A stretch of 44,648 nt of DNA, taken from a virus. The translations under genes were made by a program, and so were the position numbers. The stretch covers positions 1-44,648 of the IMG/VR virus record IMGVR_UViG_3300002334_000084; one strand, given 5' to 3'. Positions 2,169 to 44,648 of this stretch are shown in pieces. The notes under the pieces were generated by a model. That model did no database searches, had not been told where the DNA came from, and saw nothing but the letters and a program-made list of their open reading frames with translations. Positions within the stretch are counted from its first letter, which is position 1. Each line of letters starts with the position of its first letter.

Positions 2169-3143
2169 GTGGCAACTCTAGCTGACACGGTCGTGACGTT
2201 TGACGAATGGGTCAAGCGCATGGACAAGTCGAATGTGAAGACGATCATCGAAGTCGCAGCAGACTCGAACAGTATGCTGAAAACTGCGATGGTCGGCCCC
2301 GGCAACGAAGCCGACGGCAACACCACCACCGTGCGAACCGCGTACCCGCCGGGTACCTGGACGAGCGCGTACGAAGGCGTTGACAGTGACGCTTCCCACA
2401 CGAAGGAAGTCTGGGACGCAGCGGGGTATCTCGAGGGGTACTCGGTCATCTCGAAGCGCTACGTGCATCGCTCGCCCGATCGTCGGGCCGCACGTTTTCA
2501 AGAGGAGCGGGCGTTCATTATCGGTCACAGTCAGACGATCGAGAACACCTTCTTCCATGGCGATCGCAACCTGAACCCGAAGCAGTTCCTCGGGCTCGAT
2601 CAGCGATATGCACAGCTGGGCGCCGAGACTGGCGGCCAGATTGTTGACGCCGGAGGGACCGGTTCGATCAACACCGACATTTGGTTCGTGAACTGGGGCA
2701 AGGGCGGTATCTCGCTCTTCTTCGGCAAGAACAACATGGGCGGGCTTCAGATCGAAGACAAGGGACTTCTGTCCTGGGATCTGAATGGCGATGGAAAACA
2801 CCAGGAGTGCTACGTCTCACACTACGAGTGGAACGTGGGTCTGATGGTGGAGGACTATCGCGCGGTTGCTCGAGTCGCGAACATTGACTCGGCCACCCTT
2901 CCGGCAAGCCTGGTCGATTTCATGATCGAGGCTTACTTCGCGATCCCGGACCAGATGGACGGCATGCGCAAAGCGATCTACTGCAACACGACTGTGTTGA
3001 TCGCATTGACGAAAGAGGCGCGGAACTTCAGCCAGACCAATTTGACAATCGACAATTGGGAAGGCCGGAAGATGACGCACTTCATGGGGATCCCGATCTT
3101 CCGATCGGACAAGATCACCAACGTCGGCGCGCGGATCGTCTAG
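2169..3143 (+). CDS. Major capsid protein, Gp7 (epsilon15-like) family
   Basis: This 324-residue protein builds the icosahedral shell. The stretch from about residue 125 to 240 (NTFFHGDRNLNPKQFLGLDQRY, then a VDAGGTGSINTDIW segment, then GLQIEDKG, then YEWNVGLMVEDYRAVARVANID split over the next 40 residues) matches what I know of the epsilon15 Gp7 major capsid family, which has the HK97 fold. The start codon is GTG with a strong GAAGGAG site seven bases before it, and no ATG is available nearby. It follows the scaffold gene and precedes the cement gene, the standard order. Confidence 0.92.
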   Translation: MATLADTVVTFDEWVKRMDKSNVKTIIEVAADSNSMLKTAMVGPGNEADGNTTTVRTAYPPGTWTSAYEGVDSDASHTKEVWDAAGYLEGYSVISKRYVHRSPDRRAARFQEERAFIIGHSQTIENTFFHGDRNLNPKQFLGLDQRYAQLGAETGGQIVDAGGTGSINTDIWFVNWGKGGISLFFGKNNMGGLQIEDKGLLSWDLNGDGKHQECYVSHYEWNVGLMVEDYRAVARVANIDSATLPASLVDFMIEAYFAIPDQMDGMRKAIYCNTTVLIALTKEARNFSQTNLTIDNWEGRKMTHFMGIPIFRSDKITNVGARIV

Positions 3144-19222: not shown

Positions 19223-19705
19223 ATGCGTTTCATCACTGTTCTACTCGTTCTATTCATGTGTCTCGGGACGTTCCCGGCGGCGGCAGATTGGGAAAGAGTC
19301 TTCGACGGGACCGATTCGACGGTTGCGAAGAAGACGATCGGGAGCAGCAACCAGGCTCTTTATCACCACTTCACCACCATCGACGACTCGACGGGTCTGT
19401 TCATTCAGGCCGGCTATGAGGTTGAGGTCTGTCTCAACGCGAACGATGGGTCGCCGACGAAGACCGGCAACCTCACGAAAGTGTGGCTGCTTCATGGGAC
19501 GCACATCGGGGGCGTGGAGCCTGGTGCGAACCATTGGCTTCGGTTGTTCAATATCGAACTCGATGGCACGGGCTCGCCGAGTGGCGTGACGAATGATTGC
19601 CATTACACGGTCGACGGACCTCGCTGGATCATGGTCGACGTCACGGTCGCGCCAGACAATAACGGCGCGTATGTCTCGGTGATCGTGCGGCCGAAAAAGA
19701 GGTAG
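19223..19705 (+). CDS. Secreted protein 1 of the post-fibre cassette
   Basis: This protein has 160 residues and a clear Sec signal peptide (MRFITVLLVLFMCLGTFPAA, cleavage likely after residue 21). The mature part of about 140 residues is beta-rich with two cysteines and ends in a basic RPKKR tail. It looks exported to the periplasm or beyond, which is unusual for a gene lying directly after a tail fibre. It shares the WY/W-type hydrophobic second half with the next three proteins only weakly, so membership of their family is uncertain. The ATG has a TAGGAG site. Confidence 0.75.
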   Translation: MRFITVLLVLFMCLGTFPAAADWERVFDGTDSTVAKKTIGSSNQALYHHFTTIDDSTGLFIQAGYEVEVCLNANDGSPTKTGNLTKVWLLHGTHIGGVEPGANHWLRLFNIELDGTGSPSGVTNDCHYTVDGPRWIMVDVTVAPDNNGAYVSVIVRPKKR

Positions 19706-19707
19706 CC

Positions 19708-20310
19708 ATGCGGGAATCAATTCGAGTTGCGATCGCGTTGCTGCTGGTCCTGTGCCTGGGGCCGACGGGGGCGCTCTCTGCTCCGGAGTCGAAGCCGAAG
19801 TCTGCCTGCTCCAATGGTTACGTTCAGTGGACGCAGAACAGCACCGAGAGCACCAGTGCCACCGGGACATGGGGGACGCTCGACGGCGCCCTCGGGGCTG
19901 ATCATGATCAGGATTCCTCGAGTCAATCCTTCGCGGATTGCTTCGAAGTCTCGACTGTCATCGACCACATGTTTCAGTACGTCTGCGACATTCAAGAATA
20001 CCGCATCACTGGACAGCAGACGTTTCAGGTTTCAGTGGGGGAGCGTGAGCCGAAGCTTGCAATTTGTAGCAGCAGCACCGAAGCGGTGTGCGGGATCTTC
20101 CAGCAATACACATCCTCGTTGCAGCGCGCGACGAGTACCGGCGCGAACCACTTCGTGCAGACCTTGATCGACTTCCGGGTCGTGTTGTCGAAGGACGTCT
20201 GGTATGGGTTGCAGATTCAAATCGGCGGGGGTGGAACTGCAACGATCACACAGACCCCCGGCGACCACCTTCGGGTCGAGGAGTCTAAATGCGAATTGAT
20301 CGTCTGGTGA
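19708..20310 (+). CDS. Secreted cysteine-rich paralogue A (post-fibre cassette)
   Basis: This protein has 200 residues. The signal peptide ends near residue 25, and the mature chain starts PESKPKSAC. The mature part has six cysteines. A shared core, C about 16-20 residues before FQYVC, recurs in the next two proteins, as does a C-terminal WYG element followed by a Gly-rich turn and a final cysteine. The even cysteine number and export signal fit a disulfide-stabilised periplasmic or surface protein. No enzyme motif is seen. It starts two bases after the previous stop. Confidence 0.78.
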   Translation: MRESIRVAIALLLVLCLGPTGALSAPESKPKSACSNGYVQWTQNSTESTSATGTWGTLDGALGADHDQDSSSQSFADCFEVSTVIDHMFQYVCDIQEYRITGQQTFQVSVGEREPKLAICSSSTEAVCGIFQQYTSSLQRATSTGANHFVQTLIDFRVVLSKDVWYGLQIQIGGGGTATITQTPGDHLRVEESKCELIVW

Positions 20311-20873
20311 TTCCATGCCTGCTCGTCGTGGCAACGCTCGCGTTTGCGGGGCCGGAGCCGAAGCCGAGGTCTGGGTGCATCGATAGGCTCATCCGATTCA
20401 CGGGGAACACTGCGACGTTTACCACGGTCGGCGCGGCCGGCGTCGCATTCCATTTGGCGGGCCGGCTCGGCGCGGACCACGGCGACTCATACGTAACGCC
20501 TGGATTCCTCGCGTGCTTCGCGTACGACGAGAGCAATGGGCATCACTTTCAGTGGACCTGTAAGGACACCTTCGTCGAGATGAGCGCGATCATTTCGGGG
20601 CAAGTGAACGCGGCCGATAGAGATATCGCGATGGGCTTCGCGCATAAAGCGACGTCGGGGACGATGTCGGCCTCGGACTTCATCAGAAAAGTCGCTCGCA
20701 CGCACAAGGCGACGGGCGACTACGTCCAGCATCGGCTTCGGCTTTGGAATTACGAGCTGCAGGAAAATGAGTGGTACGCAATCCTGATCGCTTCGGAAAA
20801 CGGGGGGAGTCCTGGCTTCACAGCAATCCTCTCGCAGCACTGGGAAATTCAGGAGATGGGATGCAGACAATGA
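20289..20873 (+). CDS. Secreted cysteine-rich paralogue B (post-fibre cassette)
   Basis: This protein has 194 residues. The signal peptide MRIDRLVIPCLLVVATLAFA is followed by GPEPKPRSGC, almost the same mature start as its upstream neighbour. Four mature cysteines include the shared CFAY...FQWTC pair, and the C-terminal WYA element and last cysteine also match. The start ATG lies inside the previous gene with a GAGGAG site before it, so the two are translationally coupled. Function is unknown. The paralogy comes from direct side-by-side reading. Confidence 0.78.
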   Translation: MRIDRLVIPCLLVVATLAFAGPEPKPRSGCIDRLIRFTGNTATFTTVGAAGVAFHLAGRLGADHGDSYVTPGFLACFAYDESNGHHFQWTCKDTFVEMSAIISGQVNAADRDIAMGFAHKATSGTMSASDFIRKVARTHKATGDYVQHRLRLWNYELQENEWYAILIASENGGSPGFTAILSQHWEIQEMGCRQ

Positions 20874-21508
20874 AAATTGCAATCGCTTTGATTCTGCTGG
20901 TGGTGTTCGCTTCGTCCGCAAACTCTGGGCCGCAGTCGTGGGCGAGCGGGTGCAGGGATCAGTCGGCGACGTTCGAAGCAAACGCGGGGATCTCTTCGGG
21001 CCTCGGTTCCGGTGGCTTCGAATATCAAAGTCTCGAGGGGACCTCTGGGGAGTGGCCGGCGACTTATGTCGGCGATGACATCGAAGCGTGTATCGAGTGG
21101 GTGTCGACGTGGGGGAACTTTCAATTCCGTTGGGTCTGTGAGAGTACGTGGTTCACGATCGAGGCGAACATCGACTTCACAATTCCATCAGGCTCAGCGA
21201 GTTCGCTTGTTCTCACGGCATCGTCACACAATGCCGACGTCGACATGCACATCGGCCACCTCTATCCAGGGACCGGAGCGGGCTGCGACCCGTGCCAGAC
21301 TTGGGCGATCTTCTCGAGGCACCATCACCAGACGCACTTCAATGCCAGCGAGTCGATCAATCACGTCATTACTTACCCGCTCATAGAGGATCGATATTAC
21401 GGATTCATGTGGTATTCAAATACTGGGGCAGACGTGACGATGACGATGCTCGAGGGTTCATTCATTCAATACACAACGAACACGTGCCAGAGAGGGACCT
21501 ACCCATGA
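20861..21508 (+). CDS. Secreted cysteine-rich paralogue C (post-fibre cassette)
   Basis: This protein has 215 residues. The signal peptide MQTMKIAIALILLVVFASSA is followed by a GPQSWASGC-type mature start, parallel to paralogues A and B. Six mature cysteines include the shared pair (EACIEW, then FQFRWVC) and a CDPC motif that is absent in the others. The C-terminal half ends with RYYGFMWY, a Gly/Asp turn and a final cysteine, again matching A and B. The start is placed at the ATG five bases after AGGAG. An ATG nine bases later would overlap the previous stop as ATGA and is the alternative. Confidence 0.77.
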   Translation: MQTMKIAIALILLVVFASSANSGPQSWASGCRDQSATFEANAGISSGLGSGGFEYQSLEGTSGEWPATYVGDDIEACIEWVSTWGNFQFRWVCESTWFTIEANIDFTIPSGSASSLVLTASSHNADVDMHIGHLYPGTGAGCDPCQTWAIFSRHHHQTHFNASESINHVITYPLIEDRYYGFMWYSNTGADVTMTMLEGSFIQYTTNTCQRGTYP

Positions 21509-26742: not shown

Positions 26743-27348
26743 TCAATCCTCCAGTACCACCATTCCGGCGGCGATTTTCCAATGCGTCACGCGCACAACT
26801 GCAAGCCAGTCGTGTACGTCCGCAATGGCCCCATACTCTTTATAACGGAAAGTGCCATCGTTTTTCAACTGCAGTGAGCCTGCCAGTAGCGGGCGGCCGC
26901 CGCAAAGTGAGTACCCGGTGGTCTGCAAGCGGGTAGCCTCGGAGACAATCGCAACATTTTTTAGATCAATTGAACGCTCCTGCATCGGGTTCTCATACCG
27001 TCGAAGGAACCCGCGGCGATCCTCGGTCCCGGCATAGCGATAATCGTGGTTCATTAGTGGGGTCTCGACCCCTGTGATCTCGAAGCCGTTCTCTTCTTTG
27101 AATCGGATGTAAGCCGCGACGTAACCCTCGATCGACGTGTCGGGCTCATCGTTGGGCGAGAGGTGCCCCTGGTCGAGCAGCGCGGTCCACTCGTGAATCT
27201 CTTCACCTCGGAGCCTGGCGTGCTCGAGCGCATCCTTCGGGATCCCGCTCATGTCGGTGAGCCCGCACGCGCCGAGGCACTCGCTCACCGACGGGAGCCG
27301 GATCCCTTCGAGGTAGTACAGGGACGTGTCTCTCACCGCTTGTTCCAT
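26743..27348 (-). CDS. PD-(D/E)XK nuclease (RecB/Cas4-like exonuclease)
   Basis: This protein has 201 residues. Residues 48-53 read GEEIHE, a G-x-x-x-HE motif common at the start of RecB-like nucleases. Then come E95 (GVE), GTED with D110, and D128-L-K130, the expected catalytic E, D and D-x-K of the PD-(D/E)XK fold. A following glutamine/threonine helix (RLQTTGYSL) fits the QxxxY-like motif IV. It likely resects double-strand ends to give single strands for the annealing protein encoded two genes upstream. The C-terminus (FRYKEYGAIADVHDWLAVVR) is typical of phage members. Confidence 0.82.
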   Translation of the reverse strand: MEQAVRDTSLYYLEGIRLPSVSECLGACGLTDMSGIPKDALEHARLRGEEIHEWTALLDQGHLSPNDEPDTSIEGYVAAYIRFKEENGFEITGVETPLMNHDYRYAGTEDRRGFLRRYENPMQERSIDLKNVAIVSEATRLQTTGYSLCGGRPLLAGSLQLKNDGTFRYKEYGAIADVHDWLAVVRVTHWKIAAGMVVLED

Positions 27349-27557
27349 CCAATGAGCTTCGAGATCCGCGTATGCTCCGCCGCCCCGACCTCTATGAATC
27401 GTTCCGCCCTGATCTTCGCGTAGTACTCGCCGACTTCGCCCACGAAGAACGGATCACCACTCGCCGCGAATCGCCATCGGGTAAGTAGATCTTCGTAGCT
27501 CGCCTCGTCGATCCACTCAATTTGTGCAGCTCGAGATTCTGGTGTGAGGTCGCTCAT
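27333..27557 (-). CDS. Small protein between annealing protein and nuclease
   Basis: This 74-residue protein overlaps the upstream gene by ATGA and the nuclease gene by 16 bases. It has a TYEDLLTRWRFA-like helical pattern (SYEDLLTRWRFAASGDPFFV) often seen in tiny phage proteins of recombination operons. No function is known. The tight double overlap argues that it is a real gene and co-translated with the nuclease. Confidence 0.7.
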   Translation of the reverse strand: MSDLTPESRAAQIEWIDEASYEDLLTRWRFAASGDPFFVGEVGEYYAKIRAERFIEVGAAEHTRISKLIGWNKR

Positions 27558-28621
27558 GCCTGGCCCGTGTCCGTGGTGTCGGCCTTGACCCACCGCTCGA
27601 TGATCTTCACGACGACGTTCACCTTGTCGGCCGGGCACTCTTCGAACTGGGCGATCCCGAGGCTGGCCAGCTCGAGCACCTCGAGCATGCCGACCTTTTT
27701 CGTGTCGCCGTTCCAGTCGTAATTCAGATCCTTGAATCGGCCTCGCAGCTTCCCATAGAGCAGATTGACGCGACCCGTTGACGCGAGCGACCCGTTCGAG
27801 TCCGACGAGCTGCTCGAGGTCTCGGTGCGACTGCCTGCCTCTGCGGCCACATGAAAGGAACTCTGCGCATCTTCGTCGCTGGGCTCTCCAAGCTCGACCG
27901 GCGTGTCCTGCGAGAACTGGCCAGAGCACGCGTGTGCGACCACCGTGGAGCCCACATAGGCCCGCTTGCAGGCCATCTTCAGCAGCGTGTTGTCGAGATC
28001 GTGGGGGTCCGGATTCTCGATCATGAGCGGCTGAATCTCAATCTCTTTCGACGCTGCGCCTGGCGCGTACTCGTTCCCGCACCCGCCGATCCGACGCCAG
28101 CAATAGAATGCCGAGTCGTCGGTCTTCTTCGACGTGCGAATCGTGGGCTCACCGCACTCGGGACACTTGCGATCGTTGTAGCGGTAGCGGTGTTTCTTTT
28201 CCCACGAGTTGCCGGAGCCGTAGCCCTCGCCGACGACCGTGCCATCCTCCATCACCAGGCGGCAACGCACGCTGTACCCGATTGGCGGCGTGCGGACGCC
28301 ATCGCCCTCGAGACGTTCGATCTCGTAGAGCGGCGTGTACCCGAAGAACTTGTTCAGCTTCTGAGCACCAGGCTGAAAGAGCGTTTTCTTGTCGGTCTTC
28401 GGGATGAGTCCATAGTCCACGCCTTCCGTCATGATCGCGAGCTGCAGTGCTAGCAGTCGATCGATCTCGGTGGTCGCATGCTCGAGGCGCTTGTCGAACT
28501 GTTCGTCGGTGAGCAGTGCCAGCGGGCTGGGCTGGTAGCTGCGCTCGACGATCGTGACCTCGCCCATCAATCTGTCAGCCGAGTCGTGCTTGATAACGTC
28601 AGTGCCTTCGTTCTTCGTCAT
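27554..28621 (-). CDS. Probable single-strand annealing recombinase with zinc-ribbon insertion
   Basis: This protein has 355 residues. The order of motifs (IMTEGVDYGLIP, then LFQPGAQKLNKFFGY, YSVRCRLVMEDG, SWEKKHRYR, a CPECG...CWRRIGGCG zinc ribbon, then ENPDPHDLDNTLLKMACKRA) matches a common phage family usually annotated as a recombination or ssDNA-annealing protein. It would pair complementary single strands made by the nuclease encoded downstream. The last 100 residues (serine-rich linker and a small helical domain) may bind partners. The ATG has an AGGGGA site that follows directly on an intrinsic-terminator hairpin. The family link is from memory of motif order. Confidence 0.75.
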   Translation of the reverse strand: MTKNEGTDVIKHDSADRLMGEVTIVERSYQPSPLALLTDEQFDKRLEHATTEIDRLLALQLAIMTEGVDYGLIPKTDKKTLFQPGAQKLNKFFGYTPLYEIERLEGDGVRTPPIGYSVRCRLVMEDGTVVGEGYGSGNSWEKKHRYRYNDRKCPECGEPTIRTSKKTDDSAFYCWRRIGGCGNEYAPGAASKEIEIQPLMIENPDPHDLDNTLLKMACKRAYVGSTVVAHACSGQFSQDTPVELGEPSDEDAQSSFHVAAEAGSRTETSSSSSDSNGSLASTGRVNLLYGKLRGRFKDLNYDWNGDTKKVGMLEVLELASLGIAQFEECPADKVNVVVKIIERWVKADTTDTGQA

Positions 28622-34112: not shown

Positions 34113-34949
34113 ATGGAGTGGGAAGACAAGTACAACGTGGCGCTAGACGACTTTCGAATCGCAAAAGGCAAGATCAGGTCATTGACGACAGAGAAGAATC
34201 TCGCCTATGGCGAGCGCAATCAACTGGTGTGCGCCCTCTCGGTGCTGCTCCCGGCCTGGCTCGAGCGACACTCCGAAGCCGATAAGGATTGGGAAGATGA
34301 TTGGCGGTGGATCGTGTTCATCGATTGCCCGTCGACGGGGCAGATGTCCTGGCACATCCACGATTCAGAGCTTGAGACGTTCGATCACCTCGAGCGAAGG
34401 GTCGACGGCCGCGATAGCTGGGACGGGCACACCACGGATGAGAAGTACGTGAGGCTTGCGAAGCTCTGCATCGAGATCCCCGAGCAGGTGAGCGACGACC
34501 ATATCGTCGACTCGATGGTTCCCTTCATGGATCTCGGTTGGTGGCTGAAGCGGGCTCGCTTCCGAATTGGCGAAGAGGATGGATGGACGAAAATCGTCTA
34601 TGTGACCAACGCCGAGGGCGAGATGATCGGGAATGTCGAGGATGCTCGTGTAATCGCTGCGTACGGAATCGACGAGCCCGAGCTGGCGCAGCCGGACCAC
34701 AGCACGTGCTCGATCGGTTACAGCCGAATCAATAAAGCCTGGTACGGCTGGAGTCATCGAGCGGTGTCGAGCTTCAAAATCGGACACGTCGCTCGAGACG
34801 GATTCGGCGAATGTGAAAGCGGATGGGTCGACGGGGTTGATCCGAGGACGGGCGAACCGGATAGAATCCCGGTAGCCGTCGGATTCAAGGCCGAGACAGA
34901 TGCGGACTGCAAGAGGATGGCGATGGCGTTCGCCGCGTCGGTCTCGTAA
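34113..34949 (+). CDS. Two-module phage accessory protein of unknown function
   Basis: This protein has 278 residues. The N-terminal half holds WHIHDSELETFDHLERR followed by SWDGHTTDEKYVRL, a motif found in many short phage proteins. The C-terminal half holds GYSRINKAWYGWSHRAVSSF and ends in an alanine-rich helix with TDADCKRMAMAFA, typical of another small phage protein. Here both are in one chain. Neither module has a known biochemical role. The gene starts one base after the amidase stop. Confidence 0.68.
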   Translation: MEWEDKYNVALDDFRIAKGKIRSLTTEKNLAYGERNQLVCALSVLLPAWLERHSEADKDWEDDWRWIVFIDCPSTGQMSWHIHDSELETFDHLERRVDGRDSWDGHTTDEKYVRLAKLCIEIPEQVSDDHIVDSMVPFMDLGWWLKRARFRIGEEDGWTKIVYVTNAEGEMIGNVEDARVIAAYGIDEPELAQPDHSTCSIGYSRINKAWYGWSHRAVSSFKIGHVARDGFGECESGWVDGVDPRTGEPDRIPVAVGFKAETDADCKRMAMAFAASVS

Positions 34950-37635: not shown

Positions 37636-38286
37636 ATGGGGGGCGCGACAGTGGCAGGCAAGAAAGCTGCGAAGAAAAAGGCTGCAGCGAAGCAGTCGAA
37701 AAAGAAGGCCGGGTCACGCCGAGCATCGAAGCCGAAGCGCTCCATTCGTGAGCAGCGATTCATCGACAACATGATTGTGTGGGGCAACGGCGCAAAGGCA
37801 GCACGGCTGGCAGGTTACGCCGGAACTTCATGTCGAAGCCAGGCCGCACGCCTGATGGCAAAAGCTGACATTCGCAACGCGGTCGAGAAGGGTGAGGAGC
37901 TGATGCAAGCCCTCACCAGATTCGACGCTGCGACCGTGCTTCGGGAACTCGCCGTGCTGTCTACGACGACGCTCGCGGACTTCATCGACGACCAGGGCAA
38001 ACTCAAGACCGATCTTTCCGACGTGCCGCCCGAGCTGATCGCCTGCATCCACTCAATCAAAGAGACGACCTGGTACGAGAACAAGGGCACCGGCGAAGAC
38101 GCCGAGCAGATCAAGCACACGACCTGCGAGATCAAGATTCACGATCGGATCCGAGCGCTCACGCAGGCAGGTCGACACAAGTTGGTGAAGGCTTTCGGAG
38201 ACGAGTCGGATGGGGACGATTCACTGGCCGAGCGACTGGACGAAATTCTTCGTGCCAGGAAGGCGGCCTCGAGAAAGGGGAACTGA
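37636..38286 (+). CDS. terS: Terminase small subunit
   Basis: This protein has 216 residues. The core RFIDNMIVWGNGAKAARLAG followed by a YAGTSCRSQAARLMAKADIR segment is the helix-turn-helix of the Terminase_2-type small subunit, which recognises phage DNA and regulates the large subunit. An unusual lysine/alanine-rich arm of about 35 residues precedes it (AGKKAAKKKAAAKQSKKKAG). The start could be this ATG or a GTG 15 bases later. Neither has a strong ribosome site. It begins the packaging block. Confidence 0.82.
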   Translation: MGGATVAGKKAAKKKAAAKQSKKKAGSRRASKPKRSIREQRFIDNMIVWGNGAKAARLAGYAGTSCRSQAARLMAKADIRNAVEKGEELMQALTRFDAATVLRELAVLSTTTLADFIDDQGKLKTDLSDVPPELIACIHSIKETTWYENKGTGEDAEQIKHTTCEIKIHDRIRALTQAGRHKLVKAFGDESDGDDSLAERLDEILRARKAASRKGN

Positions 38287-38287
38287 G

Positions 38288-38413
38288 ATGGCAGTGCACA
38301 CGCACCCGACACCGAAGAAGAAAAGGGCCGCGAAGAAGACCGGCACGAAGACCGTGACCGTGAAGACCACGCGCACCACGAAAACCGGGAAGGCGAAGGG
38401 ACGACGGCGATGA
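38288..38413 (+). CDS. 41-residue histone-tail-like basic protein
   Basis: This tiny gene has a GGGGAACTGAG site before its ATG and an ATGA overlap with the next gene. The product is about half lysine, arginine and threonine (PKKKRAAKKTGTKTVTVKTT) and must be disordered and strongly DNA- or RNA-binding. It lies right after the small terminase, which has a similar basic arm. It could help compact or guide DNA in packaging. That role is inference. Confidence 0.6.
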   Translation: MAVHTHPTPKKKRAAKKTGTKTVTVKTTRTTKTGKAKGRRR

Positions 38414-39729
38414 GCGACAGCGTCCAGGCATTGACCGATCCGGTCGAACAATCGTGTCACCACCTCGGGATCGAAGGCGAGTCGCACGACGACTACCTCG
38501 ATCGAGTGAAGGCGTGCGACCGATGCAACGGTGGAGATCCGGGCTACGGCGCTCGAGTGATCCAGTGCGGCCGCGCCGAAGGTCCGCACATTCAGCAGCC
38601 AGGCGAGACGCTCGAGAGCTTCATTCAGCGCGCGAATCATTGTAAGGTCCACGGCCGCGAGTCGGTGATCCTGGTCCCGGCCAACGAATCAGCGGAAGCG
38701 GTTACCGAGATCCAGATGAAGGCCTGGCGCGACGGCTTCCCGCCGATGAGCGAAGGGATCCCGGAAGTGCGACCGACAGACGTCTTCCCGAAGCCTGGCA
38801 ACGAAGCCGACGGCTCGACGGTCACGGTGCGCGAAGAGCCCGAACCGACGAAGCTCGAGGGCGAAGTGATCGCGACTATCCCGCTGGATCCGAGTGAGCC
38901 GATCGAACTCGTCGAAGCTGAGCGGCCCGAAGACGAATCGGTCGACTGGCGCAGCTTGCTCGAGCTGACGTGTCGGCCGTGCGTCGCCGGCGAGCCTGAA
39001 ATGAAGTGTAAAGCGATCTGGCACTATGACGCGACCCACGGAGGGCCGATCAAAACGCAGCTCGTGATCTGCCCCGTTGAATACAAGAGGCGCGACGCGA
39101 TGGAGGACAGACCCGCGCCAGCGTTCCCGTCGACTGTCTTCACTGAGGTCGAGATGCTCTCGCACGATGGCAGCGACCCACATCACCACTGGACCAGCTA
39201 TTGCACGGACACGATGCTGCAACACACGCAGGGGCGCGACACAGTCGAGGAGTTCATCGAGCGCGTGAACGATTGCGAGCACTGCGAAGGCACGCTCATG
39301 AAGAACGGCGACGATGTCCTTCGCAGGTTCGAGACTGAGCTGGTCTGGATCTCTTGCTTCGGCGGCCGTGGCGTGCTCCACGTGGCCACCGCCGGAGCTG
39401 TGATGCCGTGCTGGCACTGCAATCCGAGCGGGCTCGAGAACAAGGACTTCGAGGGCGTCGTTCGAAACCTTCTCCAGGGGCAGCGCGATCTACGCGCACA
39501 GCATCCGGAGCGCAAGCTAGGGACGCAAGAGGAGATCACGGCGTTTCGAGACAACAGGCACGGCGGCCCGGCGATGACCATGAACGAATGCGCGGCGGCC
39601 GAAGAGACGGAGCCAACTCATGGCCCACAAGGTACGCAAGGCTGGCAGTGTCCGAAGTGCGAGGTCGTTTTCGCACCTTGGATTGCGCAGTGCCACTGCC
39701 AGAACACACCTACGGCAAGGGGAGTTTGA
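38410..39729 (+). CDS. Protein with repeated Cys/His modules, unknown
   Basis: This protein has 439 residues. A module of about 30 residues (cysteine or histidine at the start, an ETLESFIQRANHC-type helix, then C or H two or three residues on) occurs three times: around residues 16-41 (ESHDDYLDRVKACDRC), 53-81 (ETLESFIQRANHCKVHG) and 285-315 (DTVEEFIERVNDCEHCEG). A C-terminal ribbon (WQCPKCEVVFAPWIAQCHC) adds another metal site. The middle is acidic and linker-like. I know no family with this repeat. It lies between small and large terminase genes. Confidence 0.7.
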   Translation: MSDSVQALTDPVEQSCHHLGIEGESHDDYLDRVKACDRCNGGDPGYGARVIQCGRAEGPHIQQPGETLESFIQRANHCKVHGRESVILVPANESAEAVTEIQMKAWRDGFPPMSEGIPEVRPTDVFPKPGNEADGSTVTVREEPEPTKLEGEVIATIPLDPSEPIELVEAERPEDESVDWRSLLELTCRPCVAGEPEMKCKAIWHYDATHGGPIKTQLVICPVEYKRRDAMEDRPAPAFPSTVFTEVEMLSHDGSDPHHHWTSYCTDTMLQHTQGRDTVEEFIERVNDCEHCEGTLMKNGDDVLRRFETELVWISCFGGRGVLHVATAGAVMPCWHCNPSGLENKDFEGVVRNLLQGQRDLRAQHPERKLGTQEEITAFRDNRHGGPAMTMNECAAAEETEPTHGPQGTQGWQCPKCEVVFAPWIAQCHCQNTPTARGV

Positions 39730-40412: not shown

Positions 40413-40711
40413 ACATCACGATGAACTTCACGCCGGAGTTCGAAGCGACGCTCGAGCCGGGCGTCTTGGAAGCAGGTCAGGCATGGCTGAAAACAGTCGA
40501 GAGTCGTATGAACGATCGATCCGACGCAATCGTGCGAGCCGCGATCGAGCGCGAAGCGGACTTCAACGTGTACGGATCGACCAGGGCGACGCAGATGCTG
40601 GACTTGATCAAGAGCGATCGCCGGATCGAAGAATCGTCGTGGTCTTTGAGGGGCTCCATGGGCGAGCTGCCCTCGAGCCCCTCGTCGACGAAGCGGGTGG
40701 CGAATGAGTAA
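40409..40711 (+). CDS. Small protein, unknown
   Basis: This 100-residue protein is coupled by ATGA. The first 70 residues are helical with an arginine-rich middle (MNDRSDAIVRAAIEREADFN), followed by a short serine/proline tail. No motif is recognised. It lies in the accessory stretch between the two terminase genes. Confidence 0.63.
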   Translation: MNITMNFTPEFEATLEPGVLEAGQAWLKTVESRMNDRSDAIVRAAIEREADFNVYGSTRATQMLDLIKSDRRIEESSWSLRGSMGELPSSPSSTKRVANE

Positions 40712-41042
40712 CCGAACCTATTTCGACATGGGGCGCAGCAAGCCGGGCCAGGTGGATTGGCATCCGATCAAGGACTTCCCGACGTCGGCGGAGTTCGCCG
40801 CTTCCTTCACGCTATCGGAGCGACTCCACAAGCTGCAGAACCAGCAGATGCGCGCAATCTTCCGAGGCCATCAGTTCGGCAAGACAGCACCGCGCACCGA
40901 GACCTTCCACGGGATCCCGATCATGCGAACGGATCCGATCACGTCGTGCGATGCGAACCCGCCGAAGATCGTGACGCCGGCGCGATACGACGAAGTCACC
41001 GACCTGGTCGAGCGACCCGATGGCACGTGGGTGGAGGCCTGA
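40704..41042 (+). CDS. Small protein, unknown
   Basis: This 112-residue protein overlaps the previous gene by eight bases and the next by TGATG. The middle (SERLHKLQNQQMRAIFRGHQ) is helical and basic. The second half has FHGIPIMRTDPITSCDANPP, an element known from small phage proteins in structural regions. Its role is unknown. Confidence 0.64.
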   Translation: MSNRTYFDMGRSKPGQVDWHPIKDFPTSAEFAASFTLSERLHKLQNQQMRAIFRGHQFGKTAPRTETFHGIPIMRTDPITSCDANPPKIVTPARYDEVTDLVERPDGTWVEA

Positions 41043-41326
41043 TGGACGAGCGCAACCCCGACTCTGCCCAAGGACTCCGCAACTCTGTTGGTAGCCTTGG
41101 GATTGTGTTCGATGAGGCCAGCGCTATCCCGAAGGCGATCTGGGAAGGAATCCCGACGCTTCCGAACGAGCTGCTCGCGTTGCTTCAGGCGACCGAGGAA
41201 CCTCGCGATCGCCGCATTCGATATCTGTACCTGCCTGCCCGCATCGCGGCGGTGGTGCCGGAGACGGTGCACGGCCTGAAAGTGATCGCCACCGAGCGCA
41301 TGCCGGCGTCCGAGGTGAACTCGTAA
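41042..41326 (+). CDS. Terminase large subunit Walker-B fragment protein (partial duplication)
   Basis: This protein has 94 residues. Residues 1-40 match residues 167-205 of the large terminase encoded next: ERNPD, QGL, N, then FDEAS, IPK and IW at the same spacing. The Walker B pair D24-E25 is kept. The DNA also matches, with an identical 17-base stretch at 41046-41062 and 41825-41841. No Walker A motif or nuclease part is present. The second half (RIRYLYLPARIAAVVPETVH and on) is unrelated to terminase and I do not recognise it. It is coupled on both sides by TGATG and TAATG. Confidence 0.72.
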   Translation: MDERNPDSAQGLRNSVGSLGIVFDEASAIPKAIWEGIPTLPNELLALLQATEEPRDRRIRYLYLPARIAAVVPETVHGLKVIATERMPASEVNS

Positions 41327-42930
41327 TGTGTCTTGATATGTCGACGGATAAGAAGAAATCAACCGTCGACATGTTCGCCGAGGTCGCCGCGCCTTGCATG
41401 GATGATCCTTGGCAGTGGATCCAGACCGCCTATCCATGGGGCCGCGAGGGTCACATCCTCGAAAACAAGAAACCGCACGATTGGCAACGGAAGTGCGCGA
41501 AGTTCATCGCCACCGAGCTGCGTGCGATGGCATCAGGCAAGAAACCCGACAATGTGATTCGCATCGCAAGGAAGTCGGGGCACGGCATCGGTAAGAGCAC
41601 GTTCATCGCGTGGATCATCGACTGGTGTCTCTCGACCATGACGGACTCGAGATGTCTCGTCACGGCGAACACCGACACGCAGCTGCGAGACAAGACGTGG
41701 CCCGAGGTTGGGAAGTGGCACCGCATGAGCATCTCGAGGCCGTTCTTCAGCCACAGCGCGACGACGGTGCGATCGACGGACAAGGATCACACCACCTCAT
41801 GGCAGGCCAGCGCGATCCCCTGGAACGAGCGCAACCCCGACGCCTTCCAGGGCCTGCACAACGCCGGCCGTCGAATCGTGATCATGTTCGACGAGGCCAG
41901 CGGCATTCCGAAGGTGATCTGGGAAGCCATCGAAGGCGCGATGACCGACGAAGACACGCAGATCATTTGGATTGTCTTCGGCAACCCACTGCGAAACAGT
42001 GGCCGGTTCTATCAATGCTGGGGGAAGTACTCGAAGTTCTGGAACACCGCGAGCATCGACGCCCGCACGGTCCCCGGAACGAACCTCACTCTCTTCGCAG
42101 AGTGGGCCGAGATGTACGGCGAAGACTCAGACTTTTTCAAGATACGCGTGCGAGGTCTGTGGCCCAAAGTCAGTGCGATGCAGTTCATCGGCCGGGACAT
42201 TGTCGATGCAGCGATGGACCGACGGCCGTACACGCGAGACGATGACCCGCTGATCTGTGGTCTCGACTTCGCAAGGAACGGGCTCTGCTCGAGCGTGCTC
42301 TATTGGCGGAAGGGCCGCGACGCGCAGACCATGCCACCGGACATCTACCCCGACGATCCCAGCTCTTCGCACTTCATCGCCAAGTGTGCCGAGCGACTGC
42401 GGCAGATGAAGCCCGACCTGATGTTCGGCGATGGCGTGGGTGTGGGCGGCCCGATCATTGACCGCCTGGTCGAGCTGGGCTTCGACGTGATCGATATCCA
42501 GAGCGGCGGCACGGCCGTCGACAACATGCGCCACTTCAATCGACGCGCCGAGATGTGGGCTCGAGGGAAGACGTTCATCCGCGATGGTGGCTGTCTTTGG
42601 AAGAACGAAAACTTCGCCGACGCGCTCACCACAATAGAAACCGTGCCCAACCCCAAGGGTCTTACACAGCTCGAGTCAAAGGATCACCTGCTGGCGCGCG
42701 GCGAGCCGAGCCCCGACGTTCCCGATGGCTTCATGTTCACGTTTGCCTACGACCACACCGAGCTAGCGACGCTCGAGGTGAGGGAGCAGTTAGGCATGCA
42801 CCACGCATCGGCTGGTTACGATCGATGGGCTGGACTCGAAGACCGCCGTCACACCAACGACGGCGAGGGCTATGACAAGTCCGCTCGCAATCAAACGCAA
42901 CGCAGAGCCTATTTCAACAGGGAGGACTGA
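41326..42930 (+). CDS. terL: Terminase large subunit (packaging ATPase and nuclease)
   Basis: This 534-residue protein drives DNA into the prohead and cuts it. Walker A is G85HGIGKS91, Walker B ends in D189-E190 (IVIMFDE). The C-terminal nuclease has acidic residues at D314 (CGLDFARNG) and D369 (MFGDGVGVGG), as in RNase H-like terminase nucleases. Size is normal. The ATG overlaps the previous stop as TAATG. An ATG twelve bases later (MSTDKKK) is a possible start. Confidence 0.95.
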   Translation: MCLDMSTDKKKSTVDMFAEVAAPCMDDPWQWIQTAYPWGREGHILENKKPHDWQRKCAKFIATELRAMASGKKPDNVIRIARKSGHGIGKSTFIAWIIDWCLSTMTDSRCLVTANTDTQLRDKTWPEVGKWHRMSISRPFFSHSATTVRSTDKDHTTSWQASAIPWNERNPDAFQGLHNAGRRIVIMFDEASGIPKVIWEAIEGAMTDEDTQIIWIVFGNPLRNSGRFYQCWGKYSKFWNTASIDARTVPGTNLTLFAEWAEMYGEDSDFFKIRVRGLWPKVSAMQFIGRDIVDAAMDRRPYTRDDDPLICGLDFARNGLCSSVLYWRKGRDAQTMPPDIYPDDPSSSHFIAKCAERLRQMKPDLMFGDGVGVGGPIIDRLVELGFDVIDIQSGGTAVDNMRHFNRRAEMWARGKTFIRDGGCLWKNENFADALTTIETVPNPKGLTQLESKDHLLARGEPSPDVPDGFMFTFAYDHTELATLEVREQLGMHHASAGYDRWAGLEDRRHTNDGEGYDKSARNQTQRRAYFNRED

Positions 42931-43507: not shown

Positions 43508-43894
43508 ATGTCATTCGACGGAAACGCAGGGACGCAGGCCTCGGGGCCATTCAGCTCTGAAGACTTCGATCGCCTGAAGCAGGTGTTCGGGTTCGCAGTG
43601 GCATGGGACACGCTCTATGAATTCGGCTTCGGGAGTGACAACTGGGATGAACGCTATCCGGAGATCACCGGGCAGATGCTCGAGGACGCGGCGCGAACGC
43701 TTGCGAACTCTCGAGGCGAGTCACCTATCCCGCCCGTGAGCGGGGAACCCCTCCAGACGGTCAGTGGAGGCCAACGGCGGGGGTCGCGTGAGCTCAGCGC
43801 GGCCGGTCCAGGCGCCGGCACCGAGGACACCGGGCTGCTCTCGAACACCAACGTCGTGCGTCGAAACCTCGTCAACTTTGGGAGCCTCGGCTAA
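43508..43894 (+). CDS. Small protein directly before the portal, unknown
   Basis: This 128-residue protein starts at the ATG after a TAGGAGACC site. A helical N-terminal half (SEDFDRLKQVFGFAVAWDTL) is followed by a glycine/serine/proline-rich tail. The stop overlaps the portal start as TAATG. It may be a head-assembly factor. Nothing more can be said from sequence. Confidence 0.66.
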   Translation: MSFDGNAGTQASGPFSSEDFDRLKQVFGFAVAWDTLYEFGFGSDNWDERYPEITGQMLEDAARTLANSRGESPIPPVSGEPLQTVSGGQRRGSRELSAAGPGAGTEDTGLLSNTNVVRRNLVNFGSLG

Positions 43895-44648
43895 TGGTCG
43901 CGTCCGATCGAATCTTTGGAATCAAAAAGGCTGCGCTGAAGCGGATCGGCGCACTGGGCGACGAGGTCGAGAACGACGGCTGGCGTGCTCACTGGCTTGA
44001 CCTCTCCAAGTTCCTCTTGAATCGAAGAGGGCGATACCTCAAAGCACGGAACTACGAGCCGCAGAAGGGCGGCAAGATGAACGACGAGATCAATAACGGC
44101 ACGCCCGAGGATGCGGTGCACACCGCGAGCGCCGGCATGATGGGCGGCTTCACGTCGCCGAGTATCCCGTGGATGCAATTGACCACCGAAGACGAGGACC
44201 TGGCCGAGTTCAAGCCCGTGAAGGAATACCTCTGGCGCCAGCAACAGCGAATGTTCAAGGGTTGGGCGAAGGCGAACTGGTACACGATGCTCCCAACGCT
44301 CTACGAAGAGCTGGGCGTCTTCGGCACTGGCGCGACGCGCATGGACATTCATCCGACGCGCGGCATTCACTTGACGCAGCACACGATCGGCTCGTACTAC
44401 CTGGCCAACGGGCCCGACGGGTTTGTCGACACGGTCGTCTATCGATACCCGCGCACGGTGCGGCAACTCCAGCGACTCTACAAACCTCAGGATCTTTCGA
44501 AGACGGTGCGGGATCTGATCCGAAACGAAGAACTAGACCGATACATCCGATGCGTGAACATCGTCGAGATCAACGACGGCCGCGAGAGCAACTTCAAAGA
44601 CTGGCGCGGCAAGCCGTTCCGCTCGGTGACGATGGAAGAAGAGACCAA
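43894..44648 (+). CDS. Portal protein, N-terminal part, cut by window end
   Basis: The gene starts by TAATG overlap and runs off the window. The last 99 bases repeat the window's first 99, and the frame continues there to a stop at 1036, giving about 563 residues. The motif FLLNRRGRYLKARNYEPQ, then a GTPEDAVHTASAGMMGGFTS segment and W-M-x-L, fits the head-to-tail connector family (T7 gp8, epsilon15 portal). It follows the terminase block, as in related podoviruses. Confidence 0.9.
   Translation, partial: MVASDRIFGIKKAALKRIGALGDEVENDGWRAHWLDLSKFLLNRRGRYLKARNYEPQKGGKMNDEINNGTPEDAVHTASAGMMGGFTSPSIPWMQLTTEDEDLAEFKPVKEYLWRQQQRMFKGWAKANWYTMLPTLYEELGVFGTGATRMDIHPTRGIHLTQHTIGSYYLANGPDGFVDTVVYRYPRTVRQLQRLYKPQDLSKTVRDLIRNEELDRYIRCVNIVEINDGRESNFKDWRGKPFRSVTMEEET
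44550..44648. repeat. Direct terminal repeat, right copy (circular overlap)
   Basis: This is identical to positions 1-99. Unique genome length is therefore about 44,549 bp. Confidence 0.95.

Follow-up and report, generated by a model that had tools for sequence, protein, structure and literature searches.

The window, by which we mean the whole stretch of viral DNA analysed (44,648 nucleotides), carries an exact direct terminal repeat of 99 bp (positions 1-99 and 44550-44648), so its map is probably complete. The portal gene that begins at 43894 continues across the window ends and encodes 563 amino acids in all. Within the interval that separates the genes of the small (terS) and large (terL) terminase subunits, and directly before terL, lies an ORF encoding 94 amino acids at 41042-41326 on the plus strand. 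The features of this region are the following.

37636..38286, plus strand: gene of the small terminase subunit (Terminase_2), at the start of the terS-terL interval
40704..41042, plus strand: g40704, an orphan gene (112 aa) adjoining the 94-aa ORF and absent from both close relatives
41042..41152, plus strand: TerL-derived N-terminal part of the probable chimeric ORF (start codon and residues 2-37), homologous to TerL 167-202, that is, the Walker B strand and the residues following it
41153..41326, plus strand: orphan C-terminal part (57 aa and the stop codon), with an in-frame codon-position GC of 0.72/0.46/0.82 and the presumed Shine-Dalgarno sequence of terL, CCGAGGTG, near its end
41326..42930, plus strand: gene of the large terminase subunit (TerL, 534 aa), related to TerL of the epsilon15 type and, at the profile level, to Sf6 gp2
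41824..41931, plus strand: homologous segment inside terL (TerL residues 167-202)

The frame of the 94-aa ORF is open throughout and shows no disruption. Its start codon overlaps the stop codon of g40704 in TGATG and its own stop codon overlaps the start of terL in TAATG. GGAGG precedes its ATG, and the terL ATG is in turn preceded by CCGAGGTG, located within the 3' end of the 94-aa ORF. Codon-position GC is coding-like in both halves. The Shine-Dalgarno-like sequence, the overlapping start and stops and the codon-position GC suggest that the ORF may well be translated. Among 135 loci of relatives with enough upstream DNA, 105 have an ORF end within -60 to +5 of the terL start, -4 being the commonest distance (the starts are approximate), indicating that terL usually begins at the end of whatever precedes it. 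The window is not among the counted rows; its gap of -1 was taken from the sequence.

Residues 2-37 of the 94-aa protein align without gaps to TerL residues 167-202, with 22 of 36 positions identical. The BLOSUM62 score of the fragment against TerL is 114, whereas none of its 2000 shuffled versions scored above 49. At the DNA level, blastn against the window finds 75.5% identity over 106 bp (E 5e-9); one base is missing from the alignment directly past the start codon of the 94-aa ORF, and both segments contain an identical run of 17 bases, ACGAGCGCAACCCCGAC. When the 7 proteins of the interval were compared with the 45 other ORFs of the window (315 pairs), the fragment-TerL pair (p ~2e-13) stood far below all the others, the runner-up (p 6e-5) involving an acidic low-complexity protein. 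An extension of the homology upstream of the start codon was considered; 2 identities in 10, counted by eye, were judged not significant. The first-pass annotation had reported tight start/stop overlaps, a preserved D-E pair and a 17-base identity, all of which are present, and the duplication it claimed withstands alignment of both DNA and protein. The likeness to the Walker B region is real as well, although it covers 36 residues (2-37) and not the 40 originally described.

The copy is situated about 0.8 kb from its source segment in terL. Like the TerL proteins of epsilon15-type podoviruses and their relatives (phrog_2, phrog_5902), the 94-aa protein has the 36 residues around Walker B, including the acidic pair (FDEAS). 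Unlike them, it is devoid of Walker A, of the rest of the ATPase and of the nuclease domain, and it has lost five near-invariant residues. It is truncated relative to its functional parent, covering 36 of 534 TerL residues, and its match to phrog_2 is confined to residues 5-39 (E 0.067). The match of the window TerL itself to Sf6 gp2 structures is faint at the profile level. The Walker A/P-loop motif (SGHGIGKS in the clade) is present in TerL and absent from the 94 residues, so the small protein cannot be an ATPase alone. Nor does the C-terminal nuclease domain of TerL have a counterpart in residues 38-94.

The second half had been described as unrelated to the terminase, and the comparisons agree: residues 38-94 resemble TerL at chance level on both strands, the observed score being reached by 28/500 and 248/500 shuffles. 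These 57 residues, searched by themselves and in some searches within the whole protein, have no match in Pfam, PHROGs or NCBIfam. Their only match in the phage collection, in MT835776 (E 0.2), was rejected, being antisense to an ORF which, from its sequence, looks like a reverse transcriptase. An inverted terL piece was also discarded, since the antisense strand of the window's own terL is at chance (248/500). In relatives, a number of ORFs on the minus strand, opposite TerL, give weak scores against the second half, and these look like one shared motif met repeatedly. The tail looks coding because its codon-position GC resembles that of terL (0.56/0.46/0.79) and of the capsid gene (0.55/0.42/0.77). 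Two single-sequence models were both poor, with a mean pLDDT of 48 (AlphaFold2, small protein) and 63. Of a probably chimeric gene, terL is thus the first parent; Pfam, PHROGs, NCBIfam and the phage collection yielded no source for the second half, so the point of fusion can be placed from the terL side alone.

Comparison with 165 TerL segments from relatives points to the origin of the N-terminal piece. Three residues that are rare in the family are common to the piece and the window TerL: D172 (4/165), Q175 (4/165) and K196 (3/165). The TerL closest to the piece is the window's own (22/36), followed by those of L003 (21) and L171 (20), and both R169 and the 17-base run link the piece to the window TerL and not to L003. 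From these clade-specific residues, together with R169 and the 17-base run, the piece derives from the terL of this lineage or of a very close sibling. By the NG86 method, dS is 0.93 between the piece and its own TerL and 0.71 between the latter and L003, values computed from only ~24 synonymous sites. They would suit an old copy as well as a sibling allele that was displaced.

The second of these possibilities amounts to a remnant of a displaced terminase: an earlier terL would have stood at this place, a sibling terL would have entered downstream by recombination, and a deletion would have left the piece behind. The position of the piece directly upstream of the present terL agrees with such a history, as does the larger dS, which would allow the piece to date back to the split from the L003 lineage. 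However, the number of synonymous sites is small, R169 and the 17-base run favour the own lineage as donor, and nothing else that could belong to a second terL was found nearby. We regard a displaced terminase as unlikely, though the strongest of the alternatives.

The distribution of the gene was examined next to that of TerL. The only close relatives in IMG/VR are L003 (TerL 76% identical) and L171 (68%), both of them partial contigs, and upstream of terL in these two the 94-aa ORF and g40704 are absent. Absence from relatives had been proposed as a mark of debris, and both close relatives show it. The same small gene was sought in other phages as well, without success: neither the IMG/VR patterns nor the phage collection contains a full-length relative of the 94-aa protein. 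A search with residues 1-37 matched 165 of 166 records, and two matches occurred in the window alone; a second Walker B piece was not seen in any other of the records searched, many of these loci being short pieces. Among 23 whole virus records, 21 have a match to the 94-aa protein. Those matches that begin within residues 2-6 are in long, TerL-sized frames; one extra match (residues 39-92) falls in a stop-containing stretch on the strand opposite the TerL match of that record.

Has the TerL-like peptide been under constraint? Of the 18 TerL positions conserved in at least 90% of sequences, 13 are kept in the piece and five are lost (A173, F174, H178, G181 and R183). The lost near-invariant residues precede the Walker B strand; FDEAS survives, as does I..WE further on. 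Conserved sites are kept slightly more often than other sites (permutation p 0.067). The piece and terL differ at 8, 7 and 13 sites in codon positions 1, 2 and 3, respectively. In simulations where TerL evolves at an omega of 0.07 and the omega of the fragment is varied, with 36 codons only, the mean for a neutral fragment (omega 1) is 16.3 differences in the first two codon positions combined and 11.7 in the third; the probability of 15 or fewer differences at positions 1+2 is 0.36, and 62% of the neutral runs end free of stop codons. A TerL-like omega of 0.07 is rejected for the fragment (probability of 15 or more differences at positions 1+2, 0.005), while over these 36 codons values of 0.2-0.5 are compatible with the differences seen. 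The substitution pattern thus appears to fit neutral drift rather than TerL-like constraint. Codons 23-37, comprising the Walker B core and what follows it, make up 15 of the 36 codons yet carry 3 of the 14 changes (P 0.05), a mild depletion. Because of this depletion, and of the compatibility with an omega of 0.2-0.5, weak selection on the TerL-like peptide is possible.

These data bear on the proposal that the gene is a domesticated terminase fragment, which would bind TerL or TerS through its Walker B-like piece and tune assembly or packaging. The intact frame, the ribosome-site-like sequence, the overlap with terL, the retention of the Walker B D-E pair and the downstream I..WE motif, and the scarcity of changes in the Walker B core half (3/14) would all be expected of it. 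On the other hand, the near-invariant residues ahead of the Walker B strand are gone, neutral substitution fits, the gene is missing from both close relatives, and no equivalent was seen in the other records searched. The single-sequence model, with its mean pLDDT of 48, does not predict a confident fold, and a strand and a helix spanning 36 amino acids, with Walker A missing, do not constitute an ATPase folding unit. The motor-regulating role suggested in the first-pass annotation hence received no positive support: 5 of 18 conserved positions are lost, the pattern fits neutral drift, no relative keeps the gene and the model is poor. An uninterrupted frame with signs of translation leaves a regulatory role a small chance, and all in all we hold domestication to be quite improbable.

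The neighbouring gene offers another potential parent. In ORF lists, the number of small or orphan ORFs between terS and terL is 7 in the window, 2 in L003 and 0 in L171; in L171 terS is followed by a short gap and terL, and in L003 by two small genes and terL. From these differing counts the interval gains and loses genes. g40704, immediately upstream of the 94-aa ORF, has no match in the 23 whole virus records, the phage collection or the IMG/VR patterns. Its C-terminal part weakly resembles both the tail of the 94-aa protein and the C-terminus of the major capsid protein. The 94-aa ORF could have arisen as a tandem paralogue of g40704, with terL sequence later replacing its N-terminus. The likeness of ETFHGIPI to ETVHGLKV attains a score reached in 3/5000 shuffles of the whole ORF and 8/5000 of the second half, but it is not accompanied by similarity at the DNA level (563/1000 codon shuffles reach the score), its E value in a window-wide search is ~0.15-0.7, and the same g40704 motif also resembles the capsid C-terminus. 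We give this relationship little credence.

Least probable of all is a Walker B decoy, which would be made just before TerL from the overlapping frames and would dock by the nascent ATPase or TerS, delaying or limiting motor assembly, so that the phage, if this were true, would make a regulator of the motor from a piece of the motor itself.

The explanation that we favour, and consider probable, is that the 94-aa ORF is a chimera of an ectopic partial terL copy, or of what remains of a terL that was displaced, and an orphan tail; its frame may be kept open mainly by coupling to terL. It has to account for what is directly observed: the homology, the clade-specific residues, the absence from 2/2 close relatives, the loss of conserved residues and the neutral-compatible pattern. 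The first 36 codons past the start would have been copied ectopically from part of the terL of the lineage itself, or would be all that is left of a sibling terL since displaced; the displaced-terminase reading is a sub-case of this explanation and differs in the donor only. In a region where small genes come and go, the terL piece would have fused, in frame, with a small coding sequence of other origin, presumably by recombination (duplication or displacement) and then deletion. The ORF is probably translated, and its frame would remain open mainly because its stop codon overlaps the terL start and its 3' end contains the putative ribosome site of terL, and not on account of any activity of the peptide. 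The trace of recombination that had been suggested from the outset is supported: the piece is a partial copy of the clade's own terL, the gene is missing from both close relatives and the rest of the protein is unlike TerL. If correct, this would be a snapshot of the birth of an orphan phage gene, in which part of an essential gene is duplicated beside its source and joined to other sequence, the resulting frame being perhaps preserved through the dependence of the following gene on it.

The kinds of process behind the gene have, in outline, been described already. Phage mosaicism is presented in PMC3945230 as arising via relaxed homologous recombination, at divergent homologies and with gene shuffling; the exchange outlined there is between genomes, whereas here the copy lies ~0.8 kb from its source. 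A Rad52-like recombinase was not identified by Pfam or PHROGs in the 7 window proteins tested. The deletion-born fusion genes of bacteria summarized in PMC12803068 are similar in that a gene fragment joined in frame to other sequence yields a new small ORF. Unlike these fusions, as they are summarized, the present gene resides in a phage and not in a bacterial genome, only one of its parents is identified, and the deletion is inferred. Among the titles and opening lines of abstracts of the one library searched, there was no report of a terL-fragment gene beside terL.

Other observations were made in the interval and elsewhere in the window. g40704 carries, at 40911-40943, the sequence FHGIPIMRTDPIT, which is like the capsid C-terminus FMGIPIFRSDKIT (3087-3119; E 0.025); as a capsid-derived scrap it was rejected, its p of 0.0024 among 315 tests not being beyond chance. 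A 439-aa orphan gene (38410-39729), also located between terS and terL, contains PGNEADGSTVTVR at 38794-38832, identical to the major capsid protein (2298-2336) at 11 of 13 residues. The corresponding DNA shares 20 of 21 bases with the capsid gene, a marginal result (p ~1e-4 among 315 tests); if real, this stretch would bring to two the fragments of structural genes in the terS-terL interval. On the minus strand, an exonuclease-like protein (26746-27348; phrog_298, E 5e-11) is encoded near a 355-aa protein (27557-28621) of phrog_10048, a PHROG of unknown function. Three adjoining related ORFs on the plus strand at 19663-21505 (E 3e-13 and 1e-7), the N-termini of which resemble signal peptides, are possibly a tandem family of secreted proteins. 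Finally, the product of 34113-34949 (plus strand) matches Pfam Tad6, a type I Thoeris inhibitor, over residues 158-278 (E 2.2e-27) and also a WDGH domain (E 1.7e-6), and is likely to be an anti-defence protein fused to a second domain.
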